Shown piece after piece: positions 2,711 to 56,790 of a stretch of 58,957 nt of DNA. A program made the position numbers and the translations under genes. The notes beneath the pieces are model-generated. The model was not told the DNA's origin and did no database searches. It was given only the letters and a program-made list of their open reading frames with translations. Positions within the stretch are counted from its first letter, which is position 1. Every line of letters begins with the position of its first letter. Source of the DNA: Perkinsus olseni (lineage: Eukaryota; Perkinsozoa; Perkinsida; Perkinsidae). Location of the stretch: positions 1-58,957 of the forward strand of contig JABANP010000323.1 in assembly GCA_013115135.1 (NCBI GenBank), read 5' to 3'.

Positions 2711-2730
2711 CGAAGCAGCTTCGACGAAGC
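2711..2730. repeat. XnX'nX triplet
   Basis: X=CGAAGC, spacers a and a. Confidence 0.9.
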
Positions 2731-3639
2731 TCGACGCCCTTGCAAAGGAGATCTCAGCGAATTCCTCTCTTTCATTGCAGCCGAGTGTAAGCTAAGCACT
2801 CGTCGCCGATTCAATGACGTACTTTATATAGCATCAAGAAGTATCAATGATAATAAGCACAACTAATACGCAACAATGCGATACTTATCGTGAAAAATAG
2901 CATGGAAATAGAGGCGTTTAAATTGGCCCCACTCAAGCACTGCTTGAGAAGCACCTCAAAGCCCGCTAATAATTCGGGTTGAATCCATAAGGTCCACCCC
3001 TAGACCATCTATTCCCCCACTGTTCCTTCGGAATGCGAGGCTCGACACCCGCCCTCTGAGACAGAGATCCCGGGATAGCGCTACCGCGCGGCTATCCTCA
3101 CTTCCGGTGTCCGCTCATTCTTCCATTCGAGTTTTCTAATATTTTGTGGGAAGGCTCGGTAACCCTGCCCAGGCAGCTCAACTGCGTCCGTAATCTCAAC
3201 TAGGTCGCCCTGATTTAGACGCCCGAAAACCTGCGACAGCGAATAATCAGCGAGTGAGAATGACTCCTTTGCCATCGATGCCGAACTCGAGTCCCAATTC
3301 TTCTAACTTACCTGCTGAGCATTCCCCCGCACTAAGACTGTGACGGGAGGACAGTTACCATCACCATTCCCATCTCCTGGACAAGAGCTCCAATCCGGCG
3401 CCAATCAAGCGACCCATGGAGACTTACGCTGTAACAGCCTCACTCGGAAGTCATCTGGCTTATCTTGTTTCCAAGAAACATAGCCCATCAGGTGGCATGG
3501 CGGCGGACCCGCACATACGAACGTTCTCGAACACAGCTCAGTGAGATGAGTGAATATGAGTGTGACACACAAAAGAATGAGATCGTCCTGTGGGCATAGT
3601 CGCGTATTATCCCTCATATGCTGTTACGTACCAATGCAC

Positions 3640-3659
3640 GGAGGGCCCCTCCGGGAGGG
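3640..3659. repeat. XnX'nX triplet
   Basis: X=GGAGGG, spacers c and g. Confidence 0.9.
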
Positions 3660-4105
3660 GCGAATACACGACAGCGTGGTCGATATTGTCGTGTACAGTG
3701 TACGTATTCACACCATTTTGTACTCCTTCTCGTGGGGGTGTTGCGTCCACACTACGTAACTACGCATCAGCTATCTCACCCCTGTTCCTGCTTAGGCAGA
3801 TTGGCGCGTTCGAGGCAGAGAGCAAGTCTAGCCTCTCCTCTCCGCCTCGGACGCCCGCAGGTTGGCTTCTGCCACCAGAAGCCTGAAGAACTGCGGGGGT
3901 GGTATGTCTGTGGGCGAGGAGCCGGTAATACTGGCTCCGAAGGGCGGCGTTCTCCTGCTGGAGAGCTTCACAATTGTGACACCTCGGTGCGTTCCAAGCC
4001 ATTCCAAAAGGAAAAAGATTCTCCCAAGTTTCACTGGCCCCTGGCGTTAACTCGAAGACTAAGAATAGGACTGGTCTTACTTATACAGCATGCGAACCTT
4101 ATAGT

Positions 4106-4125
4106 TCATAACTTATGAATCATAA
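4106..4125. repeat. XnX'nX triplet
   Basis: X=TCATAA, spacers c and a. Confidence 0.9.
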
Positions 4126-4222
4126 GATGTGTCGCAATCAGTAGCTGCCTCGACTATTCATATACCCGAAGGACTGCCCAGAACTCACGCTTATCCCTAG
4201 CACGCGTTGTTTGTACCGCTTC

Positions 4223-4242
4223 TGAGCAATGCTCAGTGAGCA
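4223..4242. repeat. XnX'nX triplet
   Basis: X=TGAGCA, spacers a and g. Confidence 0.9.
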
Positions 4243-5200
4243 TTGATTTCAGCGGTAGTTGAAGTCCAACAACTACCACCGACATGGTACTAAGATAAAC
4301 GCGAGGCGATCTTCTTCCGTTCTTCGGGGCGATGATCGCAGTTGTCATCGCATCCCGGGCAGCTCCGGTCGCCCGCCATGGAACCGCGGCTGTTACTCAT
4401 TATACGCCGATCGTCCTGTGCATGCGTAGCTGATTCCCCTAGAGAGAGTAAGCTCAGAGAAGTAGAAGACTTTACACTTCTTCTCGCCTTGCGATGACTA
4501 TGAACAACAACGGAGAAGCTACAACGGCGGAATCCTGCTCCGACAGCTCGCTTCCGACAAAAATATCGAGAAACTCTTGACAAGAGCGTGCGATGTAACT
4601 CGTCGTAGAATGAACTATGCGCTACATGAGCTTTACGTCCTCGAGAGAGCAAGGAGTCCATTGGATAATCCCTTTGGATTGCCCCTGCTGTGAAAGCTCA
4701 TGTTCGTGGTCTTCTAATGTGCGCAGGACAACTGACAACTTCGAGTCCCATTCCTGCTTCTGCTGCCGCGTGAGTTGACTGTATCGAAACGTCGGTCCTG
4801 CATTCGTCTCGGTGAGGTGGCAGCGCTTATTGGATGGCAGCGCCGCTGCTAACAAGCTCCCAAATAAGCCTTATTCGGCCACAGACTGTTTTCGTCACGA
4901 AAATTTCGTTCAGATAATATAATCATCACACACTCCAATGCAGTCCATACTGTGGACCTTAACCGGGGCGTTCTCCTCCGAAAACGAGCCGCAACGTCAT
5001 ACGCTAACACCGCGCGGCCTCCAATGGGGGGCCTGGCCCTCCATTAGGGGCTCGATAGTTGTAGTAGATTCCGTTCTTCGGTAAGTATAATGGTTCGTTT
5101 ATCGGTCTCCTATCGAGGGTTTTCCTCCATGTCACAGACATCTGCCGAGGGAATAGTCCGAATGTCCAATAGACTTTCCAAATTGCCGCTCTCCACACTC

Positions 5201-5220
5201 TTTCAATTTGAAAGTTTCAA
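5201..5220. repeat. XnX'nX triplet
   Basis: X=TTTCAA, spacers t and g. Confidence 0.9.
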
Positions 5221-5489
5221 ATCAATTTTGGAGCTCATGGAGAGCCTCTTGTCAGAAGACTAATTAAGAGACCTCAGGGAACACCCAAAGACCAATCCAA
5301 TTCAATGCATCCTTACCCTTCCGCTCTGCGTTTGCGTCTTATCATGCACGCAGGCACGTTCAGAGGGAATATGATCCTCCCGACACCTGAAGTCGTCGCG
5401 AAAGGAGCCATTCTAAGTGGTCTACGCTCCATCTTCGCCGGGTAGATAGCATATCGCTTAGACCCAACGAATTCAGTTCGGTTCATCAC

Positions 5490-5509
5490 TGACAGCCTGA
5501 CAGTGTCAG
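5490..5509. repeat. XnX'nX triplet, one mismatch
   Basis: X=TGTCAG (first copy TGACAG), spacers c and g. Confidence 0.7.
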
Positions 5510-6168
5510 GCACATGTTGACTCCTTCGAATCGTGTAAGTGTTATGGGACGAAAGTGCACCCATTTTGGCGCTCGCCTGGAAGACCTTTGGCCCGTATAT
5601 ATGGGACATTTCCTGTGATATTCGGGACATTTTCTGTGCTATCCCTGTGTGCTGCAATGCGTATCTTTGCGCTGCGCTATTGAGTGCTGCAATAGCTATA
5701 GATTCTAATCTATTCGTGAAGTGTAAGCTTGTCACTCGTCACTGACAAGTACTATCACTTGTGACGTATTATTGTACGCTGGAACGTGTACTCTAAGGTG
5801 CAAGGTCTGGGTTGTGTTATTTTCTATAGAACTTGGACAAGTAGTAGTGCGATCGACTTCCCTACGTACCTTGACAGTAAGTAGACAGTAACCGGCGAGC
5901 GCCGAAGACATCAGCTTAGCTGATGGGTGTGCGCGTGTGAGGCACATAGACGCGAAGCACACGTCGCAATCATACGACGTATCAATCAATACTTTCAGCA
6001 GTCGAATGCAATTGGAGCCTTTTGTGGATTACGTTGATTTTCGCCCAACCATTCCAGCTTGCGGACTGGTCAGAATCGCCCACAGCTTGACGACTCTCAT
6101 TATGTCGGAGAAAATGAACATCGGATGAACATCTTCGGATGTTTCCATCAGCTTTTTTTCTCCCTTCT

Positions 6169-7373
6169 ATGCGGAACACCGCTCAGATACTTTCCCTCTA
6201 CATCCTAGGCTGCTCAGCCGTGGATGCGATCACGTCCAACAGAAACCATTTGCAATTTTACAAAGAAATCCGGTACCCATGGTACAACAAAGAATGGCCT
6301 ACATGCTCCAACAGAACCCTATGCCCTTCGTCGAGCAACTACACTTGGAACTACACCTTCGGCCAACTTCTCGGCTTGAAGGTTAAGAATTTCGTCTTCG
6401 GCGGTTACGCAATTGGACGGAACGCTGAGATTGAGCGAGACTGGCCTCGTGATCGCGACTGGCCTGAGGATGAGTTCAAGGATCTAAAGGCACATGTGGA
6501 GAGTTTGGGTGGGAAGATATTGTTGAATTTGGGGCGTTACATCGCGGACACCTTCAACAAGACAGCTTTCGGGCACAGTGTTAAGAACTTTACCGATCGC
6601 TGTCCTGTCGATGGCTTCCAAGTGCGGATGGTGTTCGAGGGATCGGAACGGCGTAGGCATGACCCGAAGCATGCGAAGGAGATACTCGAGGTTACGAAAG
6701 AGGCGGGAAAGGAGGCTGCATTACGGTGAGTTCAACAATCAGTTTTCGGTTCTCAAATCGACAGAGCGAATACGTTGACAATGACCATCGGGTCGCTACG
6801 CGGTCGCTCAGTTCGAAATCAGATGTCAGGTTCTCAGCCAAAGACTGGCAAAAGACAAAGGAGGCCGGTCTTGGAGAAGTCGCGGACGTCAACTTGGTCA
6901 ATTTGTGGCCTTCGTGCAACGAATCTTACCCAAAATTTAACACCGATCAGTTCGTAGAGAAGGTCATCAACAAGGCCACTTTGGCCGGCGTTGACCCCGG
7001 TAGTCTCATCATCGAGGTAAGATGCCATTACTGCGCGTCTTGGCTTCAAGTTGAAGCCTTCAACATGCAACAGCGATCGCCACAGATACCTCTCTTCGTC
7101 GCAAACTCATGCGAAGTTGAAGATGTCGGCTACTCTGATGTAATACTCGATTACGGCGCGTCCCCTACAGGGAATGGGTCAATACTCTACGACCATGGCT
7201 ACCGTATCCATCCCCGGTACTTCTTTTCTCAAACTCGCGCCGTCGAGAAGGTGGACTTGGCGAGAGAATATGGCCTTCATGGTATGTTGCTTCACGGAGG
7301 TGATGGCTGGACTCAGGACCTCTATCCGTGGGATGATAATTCCCTCATCAACGCTCTGAGCAAAAAGTTTTGA
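6169..7373 (+). CDS. Secreted GH18 (chitinase)-like protein, copy 2
   Basis: Exons 6169-6725, 6830-7016 and 7086-7373 give 343 aa; introns of 104 and 69 nt. Intron positions and phases are the same as in copy 1 at 353, so the two are a duplicated pair. The start was chosen at 6169 because it aligns with the copy 1 start and begins the signal peptide; an upstream ATG at 6139 is in frame. The second intron is itself open, so retention would add 23 codons. The GH18-type motif is even more altered (VDGFQVRMV), lacking all acidic catalytic positions after the first Asp, while GGKILLNLG and GLHGMLLHGGD are kept. A secreted, catalytically inactive lectin-like role is inferred. Confidence 0.7.
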
Positions 7374-8888
7374 TCGAGGAGTACGTGATTCGTCCCCCTG
7401 TTGGTGTCGTTGCCGTCAAAGGCAACCAACTCCACAATCTTATCATGCTTCTGCAAACACCGGGTGTTCAACACCCCCCTGTCGGAGTTTAGGTCAACAC
7501 GTCGCCGAGCTAGCTTAGTCTGATGCCGTGGGTCGACGAATGGTCGAAAGCAGCAGAGCCGCTGTTTCACGTCATATGTGTCCATCCCTGTTCATAGGGG
7601 CTTATCCCGCTCGCGTGCAGCTAGAAGGGCACATCCGAATTTTGCTCGGGCCGAGCTATGGCCATCCTTGTCTCGCGTCTCCGTGATCGTCAGAGCACTG
7701 CATAAGCCACTGGTCTTGAATCATCCGCGTGCCGTGTTCGTGAGACAGGACCCGCCGAGCTCATAGAGCCGGGTTTACCTCGGATGATGAAGAGTCGCTC
7801 CGATAAGATACTCAAGTGCCGCGGGGACTATGGTAACCAATAGCCGTCAGGGCGTCACCTGTTAGTGAGACATTACCGCGCTGAACGCAGTTGGCCATCC
7901 AGGTTGGGTAACTTCGGTTTCCCGTTTTTGGAATGCCGCTCGTTGCATCTATGCTGCATCTCTCCTGAGTTTCGAGACAACCCCAAAGACCCACTTTTAC
8001 ACGGTCAGTCTATTGTACGTACTCGGCAACACTTGCTCGTCCGCACTAAGGTGGCGTTAATGAGACCAGCACACTTCGTCCAGGCTCGACTTTTATGTAG
8101 GGGACTGCGTGTGACATGCTGTCTTAGACAGCACAGTTAGACTAACTGGCGCTCCCTTGTCCTACATTTCCGCTGCGGACTTCGCCTGGCGCCGGGAGCT
8201 AGCATGGATGTTACACTCGCAACTAGTGATTGTGAAGGGAGCGAGTCCATGCGCTAGTGGTAGATATTTCTATAGTGTTGACTAAACTTATCAGAATCAC
8301 TGCTGTCGTGCTGTTCGAGCGACAACAAGTCCGACGACAGCGCAGGTCTAGTTTAGGCGTGGTAGAGAATTGGTAGGCAGGGCGGGAATTCTCGACGACT
8401 TTCGCGTTGGCCTCCTTCCGGTAGGTAGTCTAACGGTGATGATGATCATCAGATCATAACAACGCGCATAAGCACGATCATACTGCAACCACCTCTACGC
8501 GGCGATGCTCTAGGACTGCTGCGCTCAGGCGAGGGTCCTGTCTGGGTGCTGCCCAATTCTCATGCCGCGTAGTGCTAGGAACAACAACTCCTATAGCGTA
8601 CAGGTGTCTGATGGGATGTATTGAGATTAAATGGCGAGGTTATTCATATTGTTCTATAGAGCTCACCCACAGAAGGACAGAATTACTGCTAGTCATGAGC
8701 AAGCCATGGTCCTCATCGCTACTGTGACGTTCAGGTAACCACCGAGCCTCCCGGCGAGATCTTCAGCACAAGAGCACTCCCGCTGAGCAACGATAACGTA
8801 TTCAACCATTACAACAGACGTTAATGGTGGCGATAGAGGGCGAGTAAGAATCGTAAAATGATGATAGACGGCCGAAGCCAAGTGAATG
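7374..8888. other. Intergenic region between GH18-like copy 2 and HDAC
   Basis: No gene recognised on either strand. A perfect triplet lies at 7456. Near 8105 there is a 7-bp perfect palindrome with a single central base (GCTGTCT-t-AGACAGC). Confidence 0.4.
7456..7475. repeat. XnX'nX triplet
   Basis: X=AACACC, spacers g and c. Confidence 0.9.
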
Positions 8889-10811: not shown

Positions 10812-10831
10812 CAATCAGTGATTGGCAATCA
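10812..10831. repeat. XnX'nX triplet
   Basis: X=CAATCA, spacers g and g. The only one seen inside the conserved-gene island, upstream of the readable HDAC exons. Confidence 0.9.
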
Positions 10832-19300: not shown

Positions 19301-19353
19301 CTCCAGTGTCACTTGTGTTGTCAATTGGCGAAAAGGTTGGGTTGGGAAGGTAT

Positions 19354-19424
19354 GCACCGTCCGGGAATTGAACCCGGACCATCTGCTTGGAAGGCAGATA
19401 TCCTAACCATTAGACCAACGGTGC
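19354..19424 (-). tRNA. tRNA-Gly(UCC)
   Basis: 71-nt cloverleaf on the minus strand. The acceptor stem GCACCGT/ACGGTGC pairs at all seven positions, the T arm is CCGGG-TTCAATT-CCCGG, and the anticodon arm is TCTGC-CTTCCAA-GCAGA with anticodon TCC. The D arm has GGTCTAATGGTTAGG. No intron and no encoded CCA. It lies 53 bp beyond the ADAT1 stop, on the opposite strand. Confidence 0.93.
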
Positions 19425-22672: not shown

Positions 22673-22692
22673 ATGCCAGTGGCATGATGCCA
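22673..22692. repeat. XnX'nX triplet
   Basis: X=ATGCCA, spacers g and g; embedded in a 12-bp-arm palindrome. Confidence 0.9.
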
Positions 22693-24148: not shown

Positions 24149-24168
24149 TTGGGAATCCCAACTTGGGA
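24149..24168. repeat. XnX'nX triplet
   Basis: X=TTGGGA, spacers a and c. Confidence 0.9.
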
Positions 24169-24398: not shown

Positions 24399-24418
24399 AT
24401 GATCTGATCATGATGATC
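24399..24418. repeat. XnX'nX triplet
   Basis: X=ATGATC, spacers t and g. Confidence 0.9.
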
Positions 24419-24489: not shown

Positions 24490-24509
24490 TCGCTGTCAGC
24501 GAATCGCTG
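24490..24509. repeat. XnX'nX triplet
   Basis: X=TCGCTG, spacers t and a. Confidence 0.9.
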
Positions 24510-26977: not shown

Positions 26978-26997
26978 CACTAAGTTAGTGACACTAA
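26978..26997. repeat. XnX'nX triplet
   Basis: X=CACTAA, spacers g and a. Confidence 0.9.
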
Positions 26998-27437: not shown

Positions 27438-27557
27438 CTCGTCACGCATCGCTGAGCTCCAGCGAATATAGCACTGCGGAGGATGTTCCACTGGCAATGC
27501 CAGGCTGGCATGGTTGAGTCGGTACGGTAAAAGCGAAAGTTTCAGTTCTCTGCTTCA

Positions 27558-28299
27558 ATGCTCCACCTCGTTGCACTCTCCGCTGCTGCACTTGTCATCG
27601 TTAGCCTGGCTGAAGATGAACACGCGCGGCTCGTCCCCAGGTCAGGGATCGCGTAAGTGAAAACGAGACCGACTCGGCATTTTCTCCGCAGATTCGATGA
27701 TTCGTTCGAAGACATGGATGAGGGCGCTATGAGCGGGGTGGCAAACAAATCCGGGCTTCCAGGTGACGCTGACTGATCTACTGTTCTGCCGGTTACGAGC
27801 GGCGTTTCCTAGGGCCCTACGAACGTCCCGCCGGAAAGTGCACACAGACTTCGAGCGGTGCACTGACTGGCTGTCACTGCAAAGAAAATGAGGCCCCGAG
27901 GGGAATTGAGGTGTTTCTGTATTTTGGTCATCTCAGTGACCCTCGATGGTTTCAGAGCACTAAAGGTCCGATCGCGGTCGCCTGCGCTCCGCCATGCGAC
28001 TACAGGAGGGTCCTGAGGACCCGGTCCTCGGACAAGAGGGCGGTTTGAGGGCCCTCAAGGGTCCTCCCATGCTCTCTTGCGTTACTCCCACTCCGTACGG
28101 TACGGTCTGCAGAGATGCGTCGTGCTTCGTCACCCCACATGGAGATGTGAGCCCTGGCGTGCTCGGACTCAGGGCCATCGCCTCGTTGTTAGGACTGCCC
28201 GCCAGGCATGGGACCTTACTCCGTCAGATGAGAGACTGGTCGCGTATGTCTGTACCCCATTTGAGTAACTCCTACTTCAAAGCCAATTATCATTGTTAA
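27558..28299 (+). pseudogene. Cys-rich secreted protein family, copy B, broken by a 14-bp triplet
   Basis: Exon 1 27558-27652 (signal peptide), exon 2 27692-27762, exon 3 from 27813. Unlike its relatives this copy reads through DPRWFQSTKG and CAPPCDYRRVL in one frame. At 28015-28028 it has 14 extra bases that copies A and E lack, making the triplet GGTCCT-g-AGGACC-c-GGTCCT; the frame then ends at a stop 27 nt downstream. Past the insertion, the family frame (MLSCVTPTPYGTVC, SCFVTPHGD) stays open to 28299. The gene is therefore intact apart from one palindromic insertion. Confidence 0.7.
28009..28028. repeat. XnX'nX triplet inside a coding exon
   Basis: X=GGTCCT, spacers g and c. Absent from copies A and E of the same gene (14 bp difference); causes the frameshift in copy B. 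Confidence 0.92.
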
Positions 28300-29136: not shown

Positions 29137-29156
29137 AAAGAGACTCTTTGAAAGAG
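29137..29156. repeat. XnX'nX triplet
   Basis: X=AAAGAG, spacers a and g. Confidence 0.9.
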
Positions 29157-30715: not shown

Positions 30716-30735
30716 TCAGGAATCCTGAGTCAGGA
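30716..30735. repeat. XnX'nX triplet
   Basis: X=TCAGGA, spacers a and g. Confidence 0.9.
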
Positions 30736-30990: not shown

Positions 30991-31010
30991 TTCGTAATAC
31001 GAACTTCGTA
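30991..31010. repeat. XnX'nX triplet
   Basis: X=TTCGTA, spacers a and c. Confidence 0.9.
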
Positions 31011-32037: not shown

Positions 32038-32906
32038 TGGTCTCAGGACACTAAAGGTCTGCTCGGAGTCGCCTGCGCTCCGCCATGCGACTACAGGAGG
32101 GTCCTCGGACAATGGAATGAAAATGGACGAATGGAAACGTGAGCTCGGACATGCTTGGGGTCAGGGTCACCGTCTCGCTATTAGGACTGCCCGTCAGGCA
32201 TGCAACCTTACTCCATTGAAGGGACGACTACCCGTGTATGTATGTACCCCATTTGAATAGCCTCTCCCTCGAAGCCGTTTATCATTGTTATATTCGATTC
32301 TTATCTTGTTCGACAGCATCGTCAGTAGGCTGGTAGGTTCTGGCCCGTCCTTCAGTAGATTCTCAAAGCGGCAGTCATTCTTTCACAGAGGCTGCGTTTG
32401 TGACAAACGGTTTGTCGTTGCCAGTGCCGACAGGTGGCTCTATGGTTTCAACCGGCTTTCCCAATGTCAGTCCTCTAGCTCCGGATTGCGCTTAGTTGAA
32501 TCCCAGAGCTTCGCGACTAATCATCAAATTCGTGGAAAAACGCCATTCTGCGGGAAAGTGTACGGGATCAGCACTGCGGATTCAAATGCCCACACCACTA
32601 CTCCCGAGCTAGAACGCCCTTTGATTTCTGCCGTGTAATGCGGAATACGAGAGTTCGATCGTCTCACCCAGAATAGGACGCGAGATCCATGGTATTGGTT
32701 ATTGAGATATGAGCAGAAGTATTGACTCGCAATGCTGATCCACGTTTTAGATCAGAGTGTCGCTCAGTGAGTGATCAATTGCTGTCGGTTGTGTTTCTCG
32801 GTGTCGATGAGGAGCGATTTCTGTGGAATAATGAGATCAAGACTTGATCATCAAGTTGTGTTGCCTAAGGAATCTGCACCGTTCCGAACGATCCGCTCGC
32901 CCCGGG

Positions 32907-32926
32907 TATATCTGATATACTATATC
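32907..32926. repeat. XnX'nX triplet
   Basis: X=TATATC, spacers t and c. Confidence 0.9.
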
Positions 32927-33544: not shown

Positions 33545-33564
33545 AGCCTGGCAGGCTTAGCCTG
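33545..33564. repeat. XnX'nX triplet
   Basis: X=AGCCTG, spacers g and t. A diverged version persists in R4 copy 2 at about 51250, so it predates that duplication. Confidence 0.9.
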
Positions 33565-33858: not shown

Positions 33859-33878
33859 TGTTGCGGCAACACTGTTGC
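33859..33878. repeat. XnX'nX triplet
   Basis: X=TGTTGC, spacers g and c. Confidence 0.9.
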
Positions 33879-34137: not shown

Positions 34138-34157
34138 ATTCACTGTGAATCATTCAC
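34138..34157. repeat. XnX'nX triplet
   Basis: X=ATTCAC, spacers t and c; the flanks add TCACAG/CTGTGA palindromes. Confidence 0.9.
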
Positions 34158-34403: not shown

Positions 34404-34458
34404 CCTTGGAAGCACGGATGTTAACAGTGTCACACTGTTAACATCCGTGATTCCGAGG
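34404..34458. repeat. Hairpin with 27-bp arms and 1-nt centre
   Basis: Inner 18 bp of the arms (34413-34430 and 34432-34449) pair perfectly around c34431; the outer 9 bp pair with two mismatches. Confidence 0.85.
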
Positions 34459-35324: not shown

Positions 35325-35344
35325 ACCAGGACCTGGTAACCAGG
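35325..35344. repeat. XnX'nX triplet
   Basis: X=ACCAGG, spacers a and a. Confidence 0.9.
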
Positions 35345-35639: not shown

Positions 35640-36086
35640 TAAATCTCTCTGGCAAAGTGGGGCTTCAACGATGTTCCGCGTTAGCCACGCCCAGTTTGGT
35701 GACAGCCGCCCTCCGATAGTATCGAGCTCCTGTCAGCCGAACGGAAGAAGCGATAATCACTGCCCACCGGGCATGGCCACAGAAACTTGTTGAACGCCGG
35801 GCAGTTCCCGGCACTCAACACGCTTGGCCCTGCTCGCGAAGGCGTAACGCGAAGTAAGATAGAGGTGACATGTTCCGAATTCTGGCACGCAGTTTCCCGC
35901 CTAGAGTTCCTCACTTAACCCAGTTCCTCCTGGTATAACTGGTTCGTCATGGTCTAACCATCATGGTTATAGCATAACCGTTATCATAATCTCTACGCAA
36001 GTCATCAGTTCGGATAAACCTTGCACATTGCTCGAAGTATTACGCTTCCAAGGACGTATGTGTCGTGGGTTCGATTTCACATGCGA
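35640..36086. repeat. Dispersed repeat R3, copy 1 (hAT-interrupted)
   Basis: Related to 58465-58909 over its length (anchors CAGTTTGGTGACAGCCGCCC, GTGGGTTCGAT). It continues after the inserted element at 36892. Its 3' part has a tRNA-like B box (GGTTCGATTTC) about 30 bp after a CGCTTCCAAGGACG stretch, possibly a tRNA-derived SINE tail. Confidence 0.65.
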
Positions 36087-36891
36087 CAGTGTTAACATAA
36101 AGGTCGTGCTATTTTTCCTTCCGGAAATTTGCAAGAAAAATAGAATGCGGAAAAATATGGAAAAATAGCGCGTTTTTCCGCCTTTCCTTTCCGCCGCAAT
36201 TCAGCACTGTTTATTAGGGTTGAACGACGAAATTTTTGGCTGCTACGCAGAATAGACGTTAAAATACCCCAGAATACGACAACTGTGCTCGCCCTTCGCC
36301 TCTGCTCTCTCTGTAGCAAGAGACCCATTGGATGCCGCGTCACGTGTACGCATGCGCAAGTGTGATTCACACAAAGTGTGTCAAGTGTGAGTTACACTGA
36401 TCAGACGTCACACTGCGTGACGCCTGATCATACTCCTTATCAAATCTTCTCCTAAGATTCTCCTTTGTCTTAACTACATCGATACTCTTATCAGCGGCAT
36501 ACTAGTAAATTTCCAATTTTTCGGCACCTGGTATCTTACAGCGGCTTCTATCATCTGTAGCCGCTTATTGACTCTATCTTTTTTCCCTACTGGTGGCCGC
36601 CTGAGCCGGGTATTGAGGTTCGAGTTGAATTCAATCAAAGCTTTTGATTTAAAATTGCTGCTCCCGATATCGAGAGAGTACCGATGTATAATACGGAGCC
36701 TCCGGTGGTTCTCGGGCGCTTTCTGAACAACATCGACGGCGAAAACTACCGGGATACGCATGAAGAGGTTTCGGATTAAGTCGAAAGAATTTTTCAGAAA
36801 ACGCACTATTTTCCCGCTATTTTTCCTGTTTTTCGACGAAAAATTACCAGAAAGAAAAATAATATATTTTTCCACGCTTATGCCAATACTG
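36087..36891. mobile_element. hAT-like non-autonomous transposon, 805 bp
   Basis: Flanked by the 8-bp direct repeat ACATGCGA (36079-36086 and 36892-36899). The related locus at 58902-58909 has a single ACATGCGA with continuous flanks, so it is an empty site. Ends are CAGTGTTAACATAA and, inverted, CAGTATTGGCATAA (11 of 14 identical), the CAGTG-type end and 8-bp duplication of hAT elements. About 80 bp inside each end are A-rich subterminal inverted repeats (GGAAAAATAG). No transposase frame is visible. Confidence 0.75.
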
Positions 36892-37138
36892 ACATGCGAA
36901 CCCCGTAATATGAGATGTTATTGCGATATTCGCGTTTCAGGCGATTTTCAATCGCCGTTTTACTTCACACATCGCGAATCTTTTCGAATCTCGCCATGAG
37001 TGGAGGGGGTATTGCGATGTTGCGATGAGCGCTCATGATTTATCGCGGAGTCATGAATGGGCTGCCGGACAGGCGCTGCCCATATCGTGATATTCGAGAA
37101 CTACAGTGGGTAAAAACTGTTTATCGCGATAAACTGAC

Positions 37139-37167: not shown

Positions 37168-37194
37168 GATGCTCAGCATCGGATGCTGAGCATC
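37168..37194. repeat. XnX'nX triplet extended to four units
   Basis: GATGCT-c-AGCATC-g-GATGCT-g-AGCATC: two overlapping triplets. Confidence 0.9.
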
Positions 37195-38634: not shown

Positions 38635-38654
38635 TATAAAGTTTATACTATAAA
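38635..38654. repeat. XnX'nX triplet
   Basis: X=TATAAA, spacers g and c; about 45 bp upstream of the S copy 2 start, where it creates three TATA-box-like words. Confidence 0.9.
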
Positions 38655-39247: not shown

Positions 39248-39267
39248 CTACAAGTTGTAGTCTACAA
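39248..39267. repeat. XnX'nX triplet
   Basis: X=CTACAA, spacers g and t. Confidence 0.9.
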
Positions 39268-39359: not shown

Positions 39360-39379
39360 CCTGTGGCACAGGTCCTGTG
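39360..39379. repeat. XnX'nX triplet
   Basis: X=CCTGTG, spacers g and t. Confidence 0.9.
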
Positions 39380-39593
39380 CAAAAAAGCTAACTGGTCACA
39401 TAAGCATCAGTGGTGCTTTGGACTGTTGAGGGACCCTCGATGAGGCCCTCATGATGAGGATCGGTATTCCTTCCTTATCTCCCATTGAGGAAACGCTACA
39501 TTACAGGATGTATAGAGAGACTTAACCAAGTTATACTATCGCCATTCATATTATCGCCGTACTATCACAGTAGCACTGTGCCACTAAAGTCTG

Positions 39594-39618
39594 TGTGGAA
39601 ATTCCTGGAATTTCCACA
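39594..39618. repeat. Odd palindrome, 12-bp arms, 1-nt centre
   Basis: TGTGGAAATTCC-t-GGAATTTCCACA, followed by a partial third copy TGGAAT. Confidence 0.85.
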
Positions 39619-39850: not shown

Positions 39851-39870
39851 TGTGAGGCTCACACTGTGAG
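39851..39870. repeat. XnX'nX triplet
   Basis: X=TGTGAG, spacers g and c. Confidence 0.9.
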
Positions 39871-40188: not shown

Positions 40189-40208
40189 CGTGGTTACCAC
40201 GACGTGGT
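40189..40208. repeat. XnX'nX triplet
   Basis: X=CGTGGT, spacers t and a. Confidence 0.9.
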
Positions 40209-41743: not shown

Positions 41744-41763
41744 TCCCATTATGGGATTCCCAT
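41744..41763. repeat. XnX'nX triplet
   Basis: X=TCCCAT, spacers t and t. Confidence 0.9.
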
Positions 41764-43164: not shown

Positions 43165-43184
43165 ATCCTAGTAGGATCATCCTA
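43165..43184. repeat. XnX'nX triplet
   Basis: X=ATCCTA, spacers g and c; in the leader of S copy 3. Confidence 0.9.
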
Positions 43185-43331: not shown

Positions 43332-44155
43332 ATGTCTTTCTTAATCGGGATCAGCATCTTTCTCTTATATCGTGATCGCGGGCTACGCCGGCGCCTTCAG
43401 GGGAAATGATACTGTTGGTAACCCAGGCCAGGTTCCTGAGCTCCGTTCACTACGTCCACCCGTTGTCTTCGAGGAACCACCTAATTGCCTAGTAGGCTGG
43501 GGGTAGTACCCCCAGCTGAGAATTTCCATGGGGAGAATCATTGTTGGTACATAATGCAGGATGGTACCCAAGTCCATGCCGGCACTCTCATCCCCGGTAA
43601 CGCACCCGGTACTCTCGGCGGGGGTTACGTCACCGTCGGAGTCTCCTCTCTCCGTTCGAACCCTCGCGCGAGAGATGTTGCCGTTTGGGCAGAAGGTGAC
43701 GCTGCGTTTGTCCTTGAATTGGATTTTGGGATCAAGGTTCACCTCTTCCTCAACGTCCCAAGATTCGGCAAGAGCGGTTGAGTAGATGCTGGGGACGAAA
43801 AGGAGCTATACTCCCCAGCATCACTGTATAGCATCGTGGAGGTTCCGTGTTGGGGGCGAGTTGCAGCGACAGCTGAGGCCTTTGTCAAAGCTACTGCGCC
43901 CAAGACGACAATTGCGCGTACTCGTCTCGTCGAGACTGTCTCGAGATGGCCCTCGATGCGGAGGATGAAAGAGGCTACCAACGGTCGCGGATAATTTTCT
44001 TCGTGAACATCGACTGCAACGAAGGAGGGATTTGGAGATTCAAGGGTAATGTTGGTGTGGAAATCAGCGCTTCGGTTCCCGAGTCTGAAAGTCACCATTG
44101 TTCTCCGGTCAATTACCCCTACCGCCTAATTGAGCTATTCGATAGTGCAAAGTAA
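43332..44155 (+). pseudogene. Secreted orphan family S, copy 3 (broken)
   Basis: Homologous to the gene at 52276 along its length, starting at ATG 43332. Breaks: a one-base deletion in the signal-peptide codons (about 43364), a 17-bp palindromic insertion at 43492-43508 (GCTGGGGGTA-g-TACCCCCAGC results), a nonsense TGA at about 43780 where the intact copies read GGA, and further small shifts after 43890. Segments such as NHCWYIMQDGTQVHAGTLIP and DVAVWAEG remain readable. Confidence 0.8.
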
Positions 44156-44334: not shown

Positions 44335-44354
44335 TGGCACTGTGCCACTGGCAC
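44335..44354. repeat. XnX'nX triplet
   Basis: X=TGGCAC, spacers t and c. Confidence 0.9.
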
Positions 44355-45340: not shown

Positions 45341-45360
45341 TGCCAGTCTGGCACTGCCAG
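45341..45360. repeat. XnX'nX triplet
   Basis: X=TGCCAG, spacers t and c; just before the forward minisatellite. Confidence 0.9.
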
Positions 45361-46439: not shown

Positions 46440-48210
46440 AGACTTTATGCGAGGTTTCCGTACTCAACGTTAGGTCCGCCGCCAAGCTTAAATATGTTAA
46501 GCTGGACAAGCAATCTACGGTGTTGAGAACTTTTGATGGAAATTCTTGCGAGTTATCCCAATCTGTCCGTCTGAATTTGACGACAGGTAGTGTTAACCAA
46601 ACGGTGGAGATGTATATATTCCCGCTAGGTGACACTATTGATATGATTATCGGAGCCGACTTACTGTGTCGATGGGAGTGTACAGTGGACTGGTCACGAA
46701 GATGATGCTATTCCCCGAAGGTGATAAAATGTCCATGGTCCCTCTGTCGGTGGCTTCGTCCTATCTCTCAACAAAACCTCTTACTCTCGATATACCTGTA
46801 CCTCCTGAACAACTAGATAACTTTCTGGGAGATCTACCAGAACGAGAGCTAGAGAGATATTTTTCTCTGAGATTGGAAGGATTTGAACTACCTTTATTGG
46901 ATTTTGAAATCCAAGGTAGTCAAGTCCCTTACCAATCCCACATGAACTATACTGTTCCCCCTCAGTATAAAGAAGGGATGGAGGTGCTACTCCGCAATGC
47001 TGAAGCCGAAGGTGTATTGAAGAGAGTGGAGTATAGCGACGACCAGTTCATCTCGCCTGCGTTTGTTAAAAGTAAAGACCGCTATGAGAATGGTGTTTTG
47101 GTGTTCCGTCTCCTCTCTGACCTTCGATTCCTCAATGCTCGCGTGAAAGCCCCTCTCGATTGGGTGACTGAATGCCCATCTTTCATTCATCCGCGCAATT
47201 TCTAAGGAGAGTTGCTTTTATGCAACCTTAGATATTAAGGATGCATACCATAGTGCGCCACTATTCCCTCGAGTGCGGCGTTACTTGACTATAAGAATAG
47301 CCTCAAGGTTATTCCAATATCAAGTGGCTCCCCAGGGCTTTTCCCTAAGCGGATCCTTTTTTAATTGCCACCTCAGTCGATGCTTTAACCGACTACTTCT
47401 AGAGCAATGGAGGTTATGGGCTGTCTTATGGGTCGACGACCTCTGCATTCATGCTGAAACGCTTGAACGAGCCCAAAAGCGAGAGCGGATCTTCCGCGTT
47501 GCTCTGCGGATGCTACATAAAGTAGTCTCTCCAAAATGTCAACCCGCATCTGATGCTGTGGATTGTGTCGGCTTACATTTTCATCATGGTCATTTCTGCC
47601 TCAGTGATGCTTCAGTGTCAAAGCTGAAGAAGATATTGGATATCACTCCCCAGTCCACTTCCGAAGTGAGGAGATTGGTTGGAGTCATATTATATTCGTC
47701 AACGGCATTCTGCTTCTCTCCTAGTGAGTGTAGTAGGTTTGCTGATGCTCTGGCTCCTCTGCATGCTCTGGTCGCTTCCCGAGAGAAAAAGTTCATATGG
47801 AACGCCGAGGCTGAGAAGAGTGTGAGCACTCTGAAAGACCATCTGGATACTCTAAAACTCAAACAGTATGCTTTTAGGCATGCTAGTTCCACATCGATCC
47901 GTCCGTCGCCGTTAAGGACATCACTCCCGATGTCGTCCAGAATCCTAATGTATCGTCACTCGTGTCGATTATGAGCCATGGTTTCTCTGCTAGTGAACGC
48001 CGACTGCATACATATGAATTGGAAAGTCTGGTGTTGGTCCTCAGCTGGCGGAAATGGGGCAAACTCTGGTTATGTACTGCAAGAAACCGGTCTAACGAGT
48101 CCAATTATGAGACCCCAAATGTAGTGATAGTGAGCGACAGTGATCTGCTGCTTTGGTTGTCTGTGGCTAAGATTCATATTCAATCTAGCTGTCGTTATTC
48201 AAGTACATGA
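46440..48210 (+). mobile_element. Ty3/gypsy-like retrotransposon pol fragment (decayed)
   Basis: Plus-strand pol remnants in order. A retropepsin end with TIDMIIGADLL (about 46632-46664). Reverse transcriptase from about 46770 (VPYQSHMNYTVPPQYKEGM, then FISPAFVKSK), broken by a frame change near 47205, then TLDIKDAYHSAPL, VAPQGFSLSGSFF and the active-site box WVDDLCIH (about 47430). RNase H-like sequence in a further frame from about 47890 (GFSASERRLHTYELESLVLV, the last part to 48210). Order PR-RT-RH is that of Ty3/gypsy. No long terminal repeats, gag or integrase found. Not functional. Confidence 0.8.
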
Positions 48211-48371: not shown

Positions 48372-49111
48372 CTACACCATTTCCCGAGCAAATAAAATGT
48401 TTTTTCGTTCGGTTTAAACCATTTTGATAGCAATTTAGCGAGTGTCATTGGAATTAAAAAATTGTCAAACCAAATTCGTTTTGTCACCCAAATTAATATT
48501 TTGAGCAAATACGATTTAACCCGTGTCATTCTATTTAAATCGATTTTGATCCAATTTCGCTATCTGAATCATTCTGCTAGTACGATCCTTTCCTGCAACT
48601 CGAGCACATGCTCTAAGCTTATGAAACACGGTAGAACACTAATGCTCGTGAATCACGAGTCGTGATTCTTGCCAACGGTAACCACACTTCAATGATTCGA
48701 TCCGGTGGAAGTTCCTCCGAGAACGCTGCCACGTGTGACATCATGTCACTGGCGTGATGTCACGGCTACTACTGTATATGAAATATCTACCATGTTGCGT
48801 GTTACCCTCAGCTAATGCTGTGCCTTAGAAGTCCGACGCCATTGACGTTGGTCATATTGAGATAGGAGCTCGGGATGAAAATTTCACGATGAGGCATGCA
48901 ATGAACAATGGGGATGCGCGCGACTAATTCGGCGACTACTGTAGAGCATTCTAAATTGCATGGAAAGTGAGATTTAATATGCGTGACATGAGGTTTTTAA
49001 AATTGCTAAAGTGTTTAAAGTGGATGAAAGCTTTTTTAAAACAAACTTCGGTTTTCCAGGCCCTTTTAAATCAAACGAAAAAACATTTTATTTGCTCGGG
49101 AAAAGGTGTAG
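48372..49111. mobile_element. MITE-like element, 740 bp, about 45-bp terminal inverted repeats
   Basis: Left end 48372-48417 (CTACACC, TTTCCCGAGCAAATAAAATG, TTTTTTCGTT, GGTTTAAA) is repeated inverted at 49065-49111 with only a few mismatches. The interior is A/T-rich with no coding frame and holds the triplet at 48646. No target duplication is obvious. Superfamily not assigned. Confidence 0.75.
48646..48665. repeat. XnX'nX triplet
   Basis: X=TCGTGA, spacers a and g; inside the MITE-like element. Same X as in the Cys-rich family at 32018. Confidence 0.9.
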
Positions 49112-49656: not shown

Positions 49657-49676
49657 TCGGATTTTCCGACTCGGAT
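49657..49676. repeat. XnX'nX triplet, one mismatch
   Basis: X=TCGGAT (X' reads TTCCGA), spacers t and c. Confidence 0.75.
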
Positions 49677-49732
49677 GGTCCCATCTGCGGACTGCATCCG
49701 AAATGGTCAGGAAACTGTGCCAATTGTTACTG

Positions 49733-49752
49733 ACCTAGACTAGGTCACCTAG
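49733..49752. repeat. XnX'nX triplet
   Basis: X=ACCTAG, spacers a and c; overlaps the next triplet by 3 bp. Confidence 0.9.
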
Positions 49753-49769
49753 TCCAGGACTAGTAGTCC
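49750..49769. repeat. XnX'nX triplet
   Basis: X=TAGTCC, spacers a and g. Confidence 0.9.
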
Positions 49770-50687: not shown

Positions 50688-50707
50688 TCTGATCATCAGA
50701 CTCTGAT
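50688..50707. repeat. XnX'nX triplet
   Basis: X=TCTGAT, spacers c and c; overlaps the 33-bp hairpin at 50703. Confidence 0.9.
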
Positions 50708-50735
50708 GCTCATTGACTAAGTCAATGAGCATCAG
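50703..50735. repeat. Perfect hairpin, 16-bp arms, 1-nt centre
   Basis: CTGATGCTCATTGACT-a-AGTCAATGAGCATCAG. The right arm matches conserved repeat R4 sequence (GAGCATCAGACC also at 33085), so the left arm is the added inverted copy. Confidence 0.85.
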
Positions 50736-50897
50736 ACCCTAGCGAAGCGAATTGCTGGTCTAGTCAAAGTCTGTTGCAGGTCTATCCTCACTCCGTGAAA
50801 TACACCGAAATAACAAGAGAAGAAGCTTTCGTCAGTGGGTTCTGGGAAAGGACTGAGTTCTGGCGAGACCCGTCTGGTTAGCTGTACAACACAGCAA

Positions 50898-50917
50898 TTA
50901 TACAGTATAAGTTATAC
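50898..50917. repeat. XnX'nX triplet
   Basis: X=TTATAC, spacers a and g. A two-mismatch version persists in the related sequence at about 55646. Confidence 0.9.
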
Positions 50918-51770
50918 TATCCAGGGCTCCTGAACCAGGAGGTGCGAAACATCAGGTCTCTAATGAATAGCAGCTACCCAATGGATATTTTCGAAGTATT
51001 CTCACTCACTCTAGAAGCAGCACTCCCTCACGGGGACAGTCACTTGGGGATCGAACCTGATCCACGAGATGACTAAGTTGTTAGCTCTCCCTCTTATCTC
51101 TCACTCTGGCTCCAGTGAAGCAATTGATGTAAGCTTTGCCTCTTCAGATCGCCTGTCGATTTATCCACTAGTACGGCCGTGCTTCTACGCGTGCCCTCCA
51201 TTTCTCGGAGCTCAACAGTTGCACACGTGTTTCGCTCCGCTCCACAACGCCCTGCAGGCTTGGCCTGCGTCCAATAGATGGATTGGTCAACTTTGCTCTA
51301 TCTTGACTGATTGAATTCAGTAGATCTCCCCTGGAGATCTCCTCTCCAGATTTCCAATCACCTCCACTTCCCTTTGGGCTGACGTTCGATCTCTCATGCC
51401 GACACCGATTTCAAAGTAGACGTATGGTTCGTATTGTTCAAACAGCTAAGTTGACGGGACCCTAAGGAGGCAGAGTCCTTATTTCCGAGATTTCTACTAT
51501 GACTACCGCCTGTAGTCTACAGGGCAAAGATGTGCAATCGCCACGGGCGGAGGACTGAGCGAAGGTAGAAAAAAGGGCAGGTGGAGAAGAGATAAAACAG
51601 AGAGATGAAGGCTCGCTATGTGCTTGGTACTGCAGCAGTACTACTGCTAGGCTCCGGGCGAGGGCAGCCCTGGTTCAACTCATACATGCCCGTGTAGCCT
51701 CGAGGCCAGAGTCTTGCCACCAGACGGAGAAGCTGTGCACTGTGTCCCGTGATTCTCGAGTACATCGTGT

Positions 51771-51790
51771 CGGAAGCCTTCCGACGGAAG
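51771..51790. repeat. XnX'nX triplet
   Basis: X=CGGAAG, spacers c and a. The homologous place near 24352 lacks it (about 15 bp shorter). Confidence 0.9.
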
Positions 51791-52275
51791 GCATTGGAGC
51801 TTGTTCTGTCCAATATCGATTGATTGGTTACAGTAGAGCTCCAGATTTTCAAGCACCTCCACTCTCGTTCGTTCGCTTGCACATGCCTGAGACTATCCTG
51901 AGGAAGACCTACGCTTCGTATTGCTCAACAGCTGGTGACACTAGCCTGGCGTTGAGTGCAAGTAGACAGACGGACGCACCCGTCACATGTCGACTGTCTG
52001 AGTACGATTGCCTCTAAGGAGTCAGCTTCCTTGAATTAGAGATTGCCACTACGAGAGGTTGAACACAGGGTAAGAGCGTATAAGCGTGACAGGCGGACAA
52101 GTGAGTGAGGAGATCCGACTATCCGACCGATAGTAGGATGCAAATACGCCGATAAAATAGTCGCAGATCGCAAAGGGGACACTATGGGGACACCAGGGAC
52201 AAGGGGATATTGGCGTCACGATGACTACGAATAAAGTGTCCCATATTCCGTCTTTTCTCTCTCCAAGGCGTAAAC

Positions 52276-53088: not shown

Positions 53089-53902
53089 ACGCCCAATTTT
53101 CATCATTCCGTCAATTTTACTTCGAACCTTGGTGATTTAGTCACCATCTCACCCTTATTCATCTGAGAACTCTCTCAGTCCCTTTTCAGTCCTTTTTGAG
53201 TATCATTTTCATTTTTCATGGAAATACGAGCGGATAAGCGGTCCCCTCAATCTTCAATGGTACACTTATAAGCAACTCTGTTGGAAGTGAACCAGAAGAC
53301 TCACGGGTCTGCACAGTCAAGGTTGTAACCAGCTGGCAGCAGTAGTGATGGTTATTCTTTTGAAGTTTGGCACGTCAAGTTCAATTATCGCTAATGTCGT
53401 CGTTTCGTCTTTATGATGTGATTTTATTAATGTCGTTTATGGATTCTATTTTACGTGTAATTTCCCACTCTCTTCTGGAAAAAAGACTTGCGTTGTATCG
53501 CAAGTGGGTAGCGAATCCCCTATAAGTGCAAAATCCCACCGTAGCCCAGGGATACTAGCCCTGAGCGATCGGCCGTATTGGGATTTTTCTTCACTTAATA
53601 GGTCCATGACTTATCAGTGCCCAAATCATCCATACTTCTACGATTTACCTACACATACAATTTAAAATCGTGAATATGGTGCAGCTAGGACAAAAAATTC
53701 CTACCGAGACTCTTCAATCGTAGTGAGTGCCTCGTTGATTCGAATGGGAAGGAGCCCTTCCTTACGGCGAATTAGTACTCATCGATGATGCTGCCGGGCT
53801 CCTCAATCTTTGCGAATCGTCGCCGCTTGTTGGTGTCACCAGGATTCATTGCTGCAGACCCGGCCTAGATGGTACAGATTGCCCAGGAGCGATTCTTCTC
53901 TG

Positions 53903-53922
53903 AAGAGTGACTCTTCAAGAGT
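53903..53922. repeat. XnX'nX triplet
   Basis: X=AAGAGT, spacers g and c. Confidence 0.9.
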
Positions 53923-54055
53923 CCGCGGAAGTGTAGACCTCATCGGGCACTGCTAAATCGGATGTTCATTTCTCGATTCTAAGACGTGCGGTTGCGTGGC
54001 AATAGGTTCGGTCGAAATATCGCCCAGGTAAAGCGAAAGCTTGACGCTCACTCAT

Positions 54056-54075
54056 TGCAGAGTCTGCAATGCAGA
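54056..54075. repeat. XnX'nX triplet
   Basis: X=TGCAGA, spacers g and a. Confidence 0.9.
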
Positions 54076-54476
54076 CGGAACCAGAGCTCTATCAGCATCT
54101 ATAGTAGGACAATCGATAGACAGTTCATTACCATTCGAGAGTTTCCAGACTAAACCGAGGTGAGAGACATCCAAGCCGCTATCCAACTTGGATAATCCAA
54201 GTGCGTCTTTCTTTTCTGGTATCTCTACTCCCAAAGAAGGAGCTATTCTTGCAGGATAGCTTCAAATATTCGTACTAGGCTTTTTGTTCCCAGAACAAAA
54301 ACATCATCATAGTACGGGAGTATTGTACTCCGAGTATAGTGGGACCTGGCAGTACATCTACTAATCTAGATGTACAAGTAGCTGCGATCTCTCGGCCGAG
54401 CATAGAAGAGAGTACAGAGTTACAAAGGACCAATACTTGAGATGCGAGGGCACATGGTCCGTACCTCACTCCAAAT

Positions 54477-54496
54477 ATAACTGAGTTATAATAACT
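54477..54496. repeat. XnX'nX triplet
   Basis: X=ATAACT, spacers g and a; inside the minus-strand gypsy RT remnant. Confidence 0.9.
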
Positions 54497-54898
54497 CTAT
54501 AACTTGGATAACATCGGCCAACAGTCTTCACCCTTATGTACTTATCATGTGCCATTCGCACTTTACAAAAAAAAGCACGGGACAGGTCTAACACCGACAA
54601 GGCTGAACTCTCAGGAATCCATCTCGCTCTCATGAACTTTATAATATCATCAATGGCCCATCCCCTGTAACTAGCGGCTCCCACTGAGTTCTTGAAAGCG
54701 CGAGTATTCGAACCTGCTCTTACCTTCGTGGTAAGAGAGCTTTGAGACAGTGGAAATGTGATTATTTCTACCGATGACAGAGCCTCCTGGCTAAAACACT
54801 CCTGCTGAGACAACCACCAACGTCGCTCGATGAACCCTGGATGCCCCTCTGGTACTCTGCTTTCTCCGTACTTGTGAGGCCATTGTAAAGGTCGACGC

Positions 54899-54918
54899 TA
54901 TAATGATTATAGTATAAT
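54899..54918. repeat. XnX'nX triplet
   Basis: X=TATAAT, spacers g and g. Confidence 0.9.
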
Positions 54919-55189
54919 CATACCCGCTTCGGCTAGTCTTAGCATTATTCTCAGTAGTATTAGCCTCTACTCAACAACGAGTGTTTGTTCTGGAGTATCT
55001 TTCACTTCATCTGGTTGAAGTCGTCTTACACGATACCTATACTCCCTGTCCCCAGGGCACTGATTCCACTGACCAATCTGGTTGAAAAGGAGGTGGAGCT
55101 GCCGGAGGTGGGACAACGATTCGGACGCCCATATCCTTCAGTTGTGTGAAGCTTAATATTAGATCAGCGTTGGGTAACTCTTTAACGAG

Positions 55190-55209
55190 TAGTGATTTAC
55201 TACTAGTAA
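55190..55209. repeat. XnX'nX triplet, one mismatch
   Basis: X=TAGTAA (first copy TAGTGA), spacers t and c; extends to a 10-bp-arm palindrome. Confidence 0.75.
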
Positions 55210-55304
55210 ATCAACTACCGGGCTATGTCCACCATAGCTCACCCTAGCCTGAACGAATGCATTCGTTTCTACAACGTTTCCATTCGCCACTCTGATTCTA
55301 GCAG

Positions 55305-55324
55305 GTGTATCATACACCGTGTAT
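55305..55324. repeat. XnX'nX triplet
   Basis: X=GTGTAT, spacers c and c. Confidence 0.9.
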
Positions 55325-55699
55325 GAAGATAGGAGCGATCGAAACACAGTCTATCACTAACATCTGATTGTATCAGTCCATGAGTAGAATAAGTATCCAG
55401 TCCTAACCTAAGTGGCAGTGTGCTTGTTGTATCGTCCGCAGAGGATACGTTAGCCAGCACTACTTATACCCTTTCATTAACATCATCAAATCGCGAATCA
55501 TCAAATCATCAATCCGTAAATCGAACTGTAATGGCGAGTATGAAATCTCTTATTCAGTATCGAGAGTTTTTGGCCGCTCACAGCCAAGTGAGCTAGGACC
55601 AGACTTTAGCATCAACCAAGAGCTGTGAATAGTCACACTGCAGTTATATAGTCTAACTTATACTGGTCAAGGCTCCTGAATCAAGAAGTCTGGAACATC

Positions 55700-55719
55700 A
55701 GGCACGGTGCCTGAGGCAC
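55700..55719. repeat. XnX'nX triplet with empty site
   Basis: X=AGGCAC, spacers g and g. The related sequence at about 50950 (AACATCAGG...ATGAATAGC) is exactly 14 bp shorter. Confidence 0.92.
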
Positions 55720-56770
55720 CTGATGAATAGCACCTACTCGATAGATGTTTACGAGATGCCCGCTCGATCCAGAAGCCGTGCTCCCTCGCGGGGATAGTCA
55801 CTCAGGGATCGAGCGTGATGATCAAGTTTTTTATAATGTTAAAAAGTGGTTAAACTTAAACGCTAGTGATGTTGATGTCCGGGAAAAGGTCTCACTGCCT
55901 TCTATGATACGGAAGAGGCAGTTAGCGGGTGTTTGGATAATAAGCGTAATCTTCACAAAACCTTCTCAGAAGGCGCAGACTGCGCCTTTAGAGAGCAAGA
56001 CGCTGTTGTCTGTGTAGAGGAAACCACGTCATGAGGAACCGTCCTCGTAAGGGTAGTCGCTCGCTGAAGTCTTCTTGAGGAAGACTGGCCACAACTCCCC
56101 CTTCGGAGACGTATCACACGACTCGTGTGTGAAGAAAAACGTAGAGTTTCGAAGCAGCCGCGCCGCATACCGGGTGCACTATAGCTCAGTACAGTGTGGC
56201 TATTTAAGATAGGGCTCAAAGAGTGGTAAAAACTGGACTCGAGAGAAGCTTATTGATAATGTGAACTACAGCTCAGGGTGGCCGAAAAGTGGGAAGAATG
56301 GTTCATTCTTCCTATTCCCGGGATTTTCCGGAATTCCCGGTAAGAAAGAATAGCATTCTTCCCCGCTGGGCCACACTGCTACAGCTTACTACGCTAAGCT
56401 TAGGACAGCACGTATACTCATGGACGCTAGTGCAGAGCGCAAAGTAAGGTCAGAATCTGACCGTCAGATGGTTATCTGAGACTAATGATATGCTTTAGCA
56501 GTGAACTAAGAGCTGAGTAGTACTGAGCCAGACTGTTGCCTAGCGTACACTATAGGCGTCACTATGTTGTCACTATAGTGCACGGGTTTAGCACAAAGCG
56601 GTCCGCGTTGTATTGAACGCGTTCTTCCTAATGCAACCACGCGTAATACGCGCTGTTGCGTCGGCGTTTAACGCGTTATGGCGTTAAACGCGCGCGTTAT
56701 AGACTATAACTTATAGTGCGAAGTGGAGTCACTACACAACACATCGCGTTTAATGTGTGAAACACTGCGG

Positions 56771-56790
56771 GTAGAAGTTCTACGGTAGAA
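56771..56790. repeat. XnX'nX triplet
   Basis: X=GTAGAA, spacers g and g. Confidence 0.9.

Follow-up and report, generated by a model that had tools for sequence, protein, structure and literature searches.

What leaves the same 20-bp figure at place after place in one stretch of DNA, with a different sequence almost every time? In the 58,957-nt contig JABANP010000323.1 of the shellfish parasite Perkinsus olseni (assembly GCA_013115135.1; the whole stretch analysed, hereafter the window), a hexamer X is repeatedly followed by one base (n1), its reverse complement X', a second base (n2) and X again. An exact scan of all 58,957 nt, the source of every unit position given here, found 58 perfect X6-n-X6'-n-X6 units, whereas 40 shuffles of the window under a first-order Markov model yielded no such unit. 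A first-pass annotation had claimed at least 44 units between positions 2711 and 56790; two of the 58 lie outside that range (GCATGA, 56943-56962; GATATT, 58935-58954) and two overlap one another (GATGCT, 37168-37187; AGCATC, 37175-37194). When arms of 4-12 were tabulated against spacers of 0-6, arm 6 with spacers 1/1 held the 58 units, the other arm-6 cells held 0-2 and arms 7-12 held 0-1 per cell, while the peaks at arms 4 and 5 were sub-windows of the 58 units. This sharp peak upholds the fixed 6+1+6+1+6 geometry that the annotation had described, as do the decayed forms its claim of decay over time: 34 with one mismatch and 64 with two were present, compared to 0 and 4-5, respectively, in each of three shuffles. 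The observation is confirmed and is stronger than first claimed. We interpret each unit as, probably, the scar of a hAT-family transposon that inserted with an 8-bp target duplication and was later excised.

The spacer bases, which had been described as following no fixed rule, do follow one. Of 57 window units (one more was too close to the window end and was excluded), 55 have at n1 the base that would pair with the nucleotide just after the unit, 47 have at n2 the base that would pair with the nucleotide just before it, and 46 satisfy both rules. The other loci retrieved gave 73 of 81 for n1 and 69 of 81 for n2. With b and a as the flanking bases and rc denoting the reverse complement, a unit is bX + rc(bXa) + Xa, an inverted 8-bp copy between two 7-mers that share X, and the underlying unit is 8 bp and not 6. 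Scored on the 14 constraints of this full 22-bp rule, the window held 47, 22, 29, 43 and 80 places at 0, 1, 2, 3 and 4 mismatches, compared to shuffle means of 0, 0, 0.25, 2.9 and 19.3. All eight decayed sites named in the first pass fitted the rule at 1-4 of 14 mismatches, although the one at 57754 has 4, a level reached by chance about 19 times per window. Because both spacers complement the flanking bases, and are thus templated, the suggestion of a polymerase that adds one untemplated base at each strand switch is unsupported. A 6-bp duplication model was also rejected, since a transposon of that kind would not account for the complement of the flanking base on the far side.

Two further contigs of the same assembly, C521 and C468, parallel the first 40 kb of the window with approximately 91-98% identity by block. 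At many scar sites these contigs carry a single X and lack exactly 14 bp, and the units are 14-bp insertions. Both contigs were empty at six sites, TGAGCA (4223-4242), TTTCAA (5201-5220), CAATCA (10812-10831), ATGCCA (22673-22692), TTGGGA (24149-24168) and GGTCCT (28009-28028). C521 was empty at TATATC (32907-32926), and C468 at TATAAA (38635-38654), CTACAA (39248-39267) and ATGAGG (39440-39459). At GGAGGG (3640-3659), C468 had the 14-bp empty site and C521 a decayed unit; AACACC (7456-7475) was decayed in C468, and CGAAGC (2711-2730) was the same in both. Toward the other end of the window, contigs C258 and C637 gave matches of empty length at ATAACT (54477-54496), TATAAT (54899-54918) and GTGTAT (55305-55324), and repeat copies were 14-17 bp shorter, unaligned, across the stretch containing GTCAGA (56449-56468). 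Against the window, 14 bp was the commonest indel size of at least 7 bp (27 indels, with 6 for the next commonest such size; 3-bp indels numbered 29), and all 27 matched bX + rc(bXa) + Xa at 0-2 of 14 mismatches, 22 of them perfectly. The comparison of C521 with C468 added three 14-bp events that fit the formula with 0, 1 and 3 mismatches. Over the three pairwise comparisons the 30 14-bp events represent 19 distinct loci and stand beside 3,488 mismatches, approximately one event per 116 single-nucleotide polymorphism (SNP) differences; among the 82 indel entries of at least 5 bp listed, 26 are of 14 bp. The three parallel contigs (window positions 1-40000, C521 and C468) may be haplotypes, strains or paralogs. 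One longer difference, window positions 5541-5876, missing from both C521 and C468, was first taken as an element with a 6-bp duplication but reads as a solo long terminal repeat (TG...CA, with the 5-bp duplication GTAAG) and is unrelated to the units.

The scars are also inherited. The unit TCGTGA (48646-48665) lies within a repeat family, part of whose copies carry the scar: it was present in all seven aligned full-length copies besides that of the window, lacking in two more distant copies, and missing again from all three aligned copies whose flanks are nearly identical to those of the window (L122-L124). Because of this distribution the scar is heritable and has apparently been lost again, perhaps by slippage between the two copies of X. 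That L122-L124 lack a scar carried by remoter copies suggests that the 14 bp were removed almost precisely. A repeat family of approximately 25 copies had private scars at different places in two of nine well-aligned copies (L069, with one mismatch, and L070) with the others empty, a count that omits L077 and L078 (partial alignment) and L083 (orientation). The joined flank of C3 likewise holds a scar that its homolog in C5 is without. An assembly or polymerase artefact of the draft genome might be suspected, palindromes being prone to miscopying and four copies of one repeat family being scarless despite a 99.5-100% flank match to the window. However, the scars decay like old sequence, are common to contigs that have their own SNPs and are passed on to repeat copies, and an artefact is scarcely credible.

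The palindromes themselves carry a signature of hairpins. In 251 kb, palindromes with a one-base loop and an arm of exactly 7 numbered 292, compared to 21, 13 and 20 for loops of 0, 2 and 4, and those with an arm of at least 13 numbered 8 compared to none for each of the same three loops (these counts treat homologous contigs separately, and loops of 3, 5 and 7 also show elevated counts, as nested registers). Two longer events for which the empty site is known both kept the predicted loop base. At approximately 33251 of C468 about 30 nt of the left flank was copied inverted, and at approximately 3873 of C521 about 20 nt of the right flank was copied inverted together with a 371-bp deletion; both would represent hairpins opened far from the tip. 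The window also contains one-base-loop palindromes at 34431 (arm of 18 nt), 45899 (22 nt) and 50719 (17 nt) that may be remnants of similar openings. A 24-bp indel at 39595-39618 combines an 11-12-nt one-base-loop palindrome with a 6-bp duplication and may record two rounds of excision at one place.

From these products we infer a route of nicking, hairpin formation, opening and annealing. The transposase would nick one base outside each transposon end, as the Hermes nick lies one base outside the element, and the free 3' end of the flank would attack the opposite strand to form a one-base-loop hairpin on each flank, the left one bX-a'X'b' and the right one a'X'-bXa. Opening of each hairpin at the distal end of the 8-bp duplication, or further out, would then give a 3' tail that is palindromic. 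The tails would anneal over 8 nt at a'X'b'/bXa because this is the only stretch that both share, and trimming of flaps and filling of gaps would produce bX a'X'b' Xa, one product regardless of the exact opening point, with units afterwards drifting by point mutation. Among the explanations offered in the first pass, hairpin-ended excision is the one favoured here, although with a duplication of 8 bp rather than 6 and with templated spacers.

A one-step error of replication or repair, in which a polymerase crosses to the other strand, copies back over 8 nt and then returns, with no transposon involved, would also account for the product, which can be written as two switches, and for the simplicity of the empty sites; that no scar site had a transposon-occupied allele among the matches listed is in keeping with it. 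Such an error would not, however, be expected to copy a length of 8 with an overlap of 6 nearly always and without a spread of lengths, nor to show the symmetric GTnnnnAC-like preference of the 8-bp site described below, and the combination of 8 bp with a one-base offset is a hallmark of hAT elements. We consider template switching unlikely.

The hAT reading draws on systems already described (the works cited by PMC number are drawn on in excerpt). Excision of Ac/Ds leaves palindromic scars whose central base complements the nucleotide next to the departed transposon and whose arms reach 20 nt in yeast (PMC5873905). These footprints have been attributed to hairpins that form on the flanks, are opened and are then joined through microhomology (PMC5873905, PMC1978519). 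The palindromic insertions left by Ac/Ds in yeasts and plants have the same centring as the units, in which the predicted base was found at n1 in 55 and at n2 in 47 of 57 cases. The first-pass statement that no described element has this form holds only in part: one-base-loop palindromes are already described for hAT excision (PMC5873905), whereas no description of the uniform double palindrome was found in the literature searched, with subscription journals mostly uncovered. Scars of hAT elements in Candida albicans are heterogeneous, with 28 kinds among 128 (PMC5873905). Among excisions of DNA transposons in rice, 8 of 94 were perfect. Transposition of hAT elements, Hermes included, seals the flanking DNA and not the transposon as a hairpin (PMC4763223), and Hermes further resembles the present case in its 8-bp duplications and its target preference nTnnnnAn (PMC10368747); no Hermes-like source element was identified here, however, and the domains seen in the transposases of this genome are DUF4371 and hAT dimerisation. 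Off-centre hairpin opening is also the source of the palindromic P nucleotides of V(D)J coding joints, but in the units both ends give the same 8-nt palindrome and would anneal together. The introners of Amoebophrya, with direct repeats of 3-5 nt, have another geometry (PMC7789003) and were set aside.

Potential sources are present in the genome. The hAT dimerisation domain PF05699 had 21 matches and PF14291 (DUF4371) had six, four of them over the cut-off, and one open frame on C941 (L030) has both domains. Two loci with transposase domains, L025 and L027, are bounded by 12-bp ends that match and by duplications of 8 bp; L027 lies among tandem repeats. A young hAT-like miniature inverted-repeat transposable element (MITE) of 268-321 bp has the ends CAGGGTGGCCCA, which gave 88 exact matches compared to 5 for the reversed pattern, with a hAT-like terminal CAGGG. 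A perfect 8-bp duplication flanked all 28 MITE copies examined (15, the C468 copy and 12 further; 29 two-ended copies were counted, and those on C462 and C619 are one insertion on opposite strands); the C468 copy is not in the window. An autonomous counterpart was sought for the MITE: an end of the CAGGGTGGCC type lies downstream of the C268 transposase, but no left end was found. Two further hAT-like elements lie in the window itself, a 105-bp relative of the MITE at 56266-56386 (ends CAGGGTGGCCGA / CAGTGTGGCCCA, 8-bp duplication CTACAGCT) and an 805-bp non-autonomous element at 36079-36899 (ends CAGTGTTAACAT / CAGTATTGGCAT, 8-bp duplication ACATGCGA) that is also present in C468. An insertion of approximately 0.7 kb at C854:12564-13422 (L120) has inverted ends (CCCGTTCAAGTGC) and a 7-bp duplication, CCAGGAG.

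The sites of the scars show a preference of the hAT kind. Among 171 scars with at most one mismatch, G1/C8 occurred in 128 of 342 cases (p ~1e-6) and T2/A7 in 118 of 342 (p ~4e-5), values that are too small because some homologous copies remain in the set. The 28 MITE duplications lean the same way (G1/C8 0.38, T2/A7 0.34). This resemblance to nTnnnnAn supports a hAT origin, short of proof. Chemistry fixes the duplication length and the side of the hairpin but not the protein family, and another cut-and-paste superfamily with 8-bp duplications and flank hairpins could in principle leave the same mark. Merlin elements, for example, have duplications of 8-9 bp, and Merlin and Dada elements are reportedly the subjects of papers that mention Perkinsus. 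The Merlin (IS1595-type) transposase PF12762, the one other superfamily searched, had no matches in the genome compared to the 21 of the hAT domain, however, and the young MITE has hAT-like CAGGG ends; we regard a superfamily other than hAT as quite unlikely.

Several results weigh against a hAT origin. Twenty-seven MITE loci were searched for pairs of transposon and scar, with at most the best 40 candidates scored in each homolog search. Twelve had transposon-less homologs across the junction, and none of the 12 was scarred at the MITE's own duplication among the matches listed (C3, C12, C14 and one C281 homolog were aligned and the other eight loci were judged by match length; one extra C930 match was 8 bp long, unaligned). 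A homolog of the C281 MITE site (L119, C71:100402-100569) has a perfect scar 3 bp from the MITE duplication, which may reflect chance or a local hot spot. Four other hAT-like elements likewise had no scar at homologous sites, and 20 scar sites and one repeat family had no transposon-occupied allele, in both cases among the matches listed. The correlation between scar and MITE site preferences was modest (0.41 over 16 cells), and n2 obeys the spacer rule less often than n1. In the comparison of C521 with C468, 14 bp accounted for only 3 of 14 indels of at least 7 bp, and no fitting partial hairpin product was found among the 37 listed indels of 5-13 bp. Whereas footprints of Ac/Ds are mixed and mostly short, one full 14-bp double palindrome prevails here. 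A loss of end joining, tried as a cause of this uniformity, is unsupported: one exon-sized Ku match and one PSO2/SNM1-type match are present, and because of these domains the loss of Ku or PSO2 functions is not the reason on this evidence. Finally, the estimated scars far exceed the MITE copies found. Because none of the 12 informative MITE loci gave an occupied/scar pair, we claim only likeness: the scars look and work like hAT footprints, and hAT elements are their likely candidate source.

The abundance estimate comes from the 10-kb starts of nine contigs in an assembly of 61.5 Mb in 968 contigs, and such starts may be atypical. These held 28 perfect scars (0 to 10 per stretch) and, with up to four mismatches allowed, an excess density of 1.47 per kb. 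Scaled to 61.5 Mb, the two figures give about 19,000 perfect scars and about 90,000 recognisable ones. Numbers so far above those of the MITE copies found, together with the unusual uniformity of the product, could suit a domesticated hAT-type nuclease or programmed DNA excision, with the scars as by-products of hairpin-ended breaks. Kat1 of Kluyveromyces lactis, a hAT transposase that has been domesticated, offers a precedent, since the breaks it makes leave the flanking DNA capped by hairpins (PMC4763223). Kat1, however, acts at one locus, in mating-type switching, whereas the scars are spread across the sampled contigs. Because the scar contains the content of two 8-bp duplications, something must first have inserted. 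In the window, moreover, no scar with up to two mismatches was found in the bins from 12 to 22 kb, where conserved genes lie, as would be the case for random hits under selection. A domesticated nuclease or programmed excision is very unlikely, and we retain excision of hAT transposons as the preferred explanation. The scar-free bins hold an Rgp1-like frame (from 11.8 kb) and an adenosine-deaminase frame, the latter with 96% identity to a Perkinsus olseni protein and, over shorter spans, 72% to Perkinsus chesapeaki and 78% to Perkinsus marinus.

The other perfect units of the window were as follows. In the first 30 kb these were TCATAA (4106-4125), TTTCGT (4890-4909), CTTCAA (7044-7063), ATGATC (24399-24418), TCGCTG (24490-24509), CACTAA (26978-26997), CTGGCA (27491-27510) and AAAGAG (29137-29156). 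Between 30 and 40 kb they were TCAGGA (30716-30735), TTCGTA (30991-31010), GTTTGT (32396-32415), ATCAAG (32836-32855), AGCCTG (33545-33564), TGTTGC (33859-33878), ATTCAC (34138-34157), ACCAGG (35325-35344), CCTGTG (39360-39379) and TGTGAG (39851-39870), and between 40 and 50 kb CGTGGT (40189-40208), TCCCAT (41744-41763), ATCCTA (43165-43184), GTCTCG (43924-43943), TGGCAC (44335-44354), TGCCAG (45341-45360), ACCTAG (49733-49752) and TAGTCC (49750-49769). The last part of the window held TCTGAT (50688-50707), TTATAC (50898-50917), TACTGC (51628-51647), CGGAAG (51771-51790), AAGAGT (53903-53922), TGCAGA (54056-54075), ATCCAA (54181-54200), AGGCAC (55700-55719), TTATAG (56697-56716) and GTAGAA (56771-56790). 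The window also contains a tRNA-Gly gene (TCC) at 19353-19424 on the minus strand and, at 47273-47974, a frame with a reverse-transcriptase match slightly below the Pfam cut-off.

The uniformity of the scars would mean either that hairpins are generally opened at a distance from the tip or that the lineage has a special step. We judge it an even chance that almost all hAT excisions in this lineage are mended in one and the same way, with both flank hairpins opened past the 8-bp duplication and the two inverted duplications annealed, the genome then being a log of approximately 90,000 jumps in a 14-bp format. If the excision reading is right, each unit marks a former transposon site together with its exact target, and copies that have since left could be counted, something seldom feasible. 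The uniform product would isolate a single route of hairpin opening and annealing, where yeast and plants use many, and it would become possible to test what opens the hairpins of hAT elements. As allele markers, too, the 14-bp units are frequent, and they should be anticipated in gene prediction, indel calling and repeat annotation across this genus.

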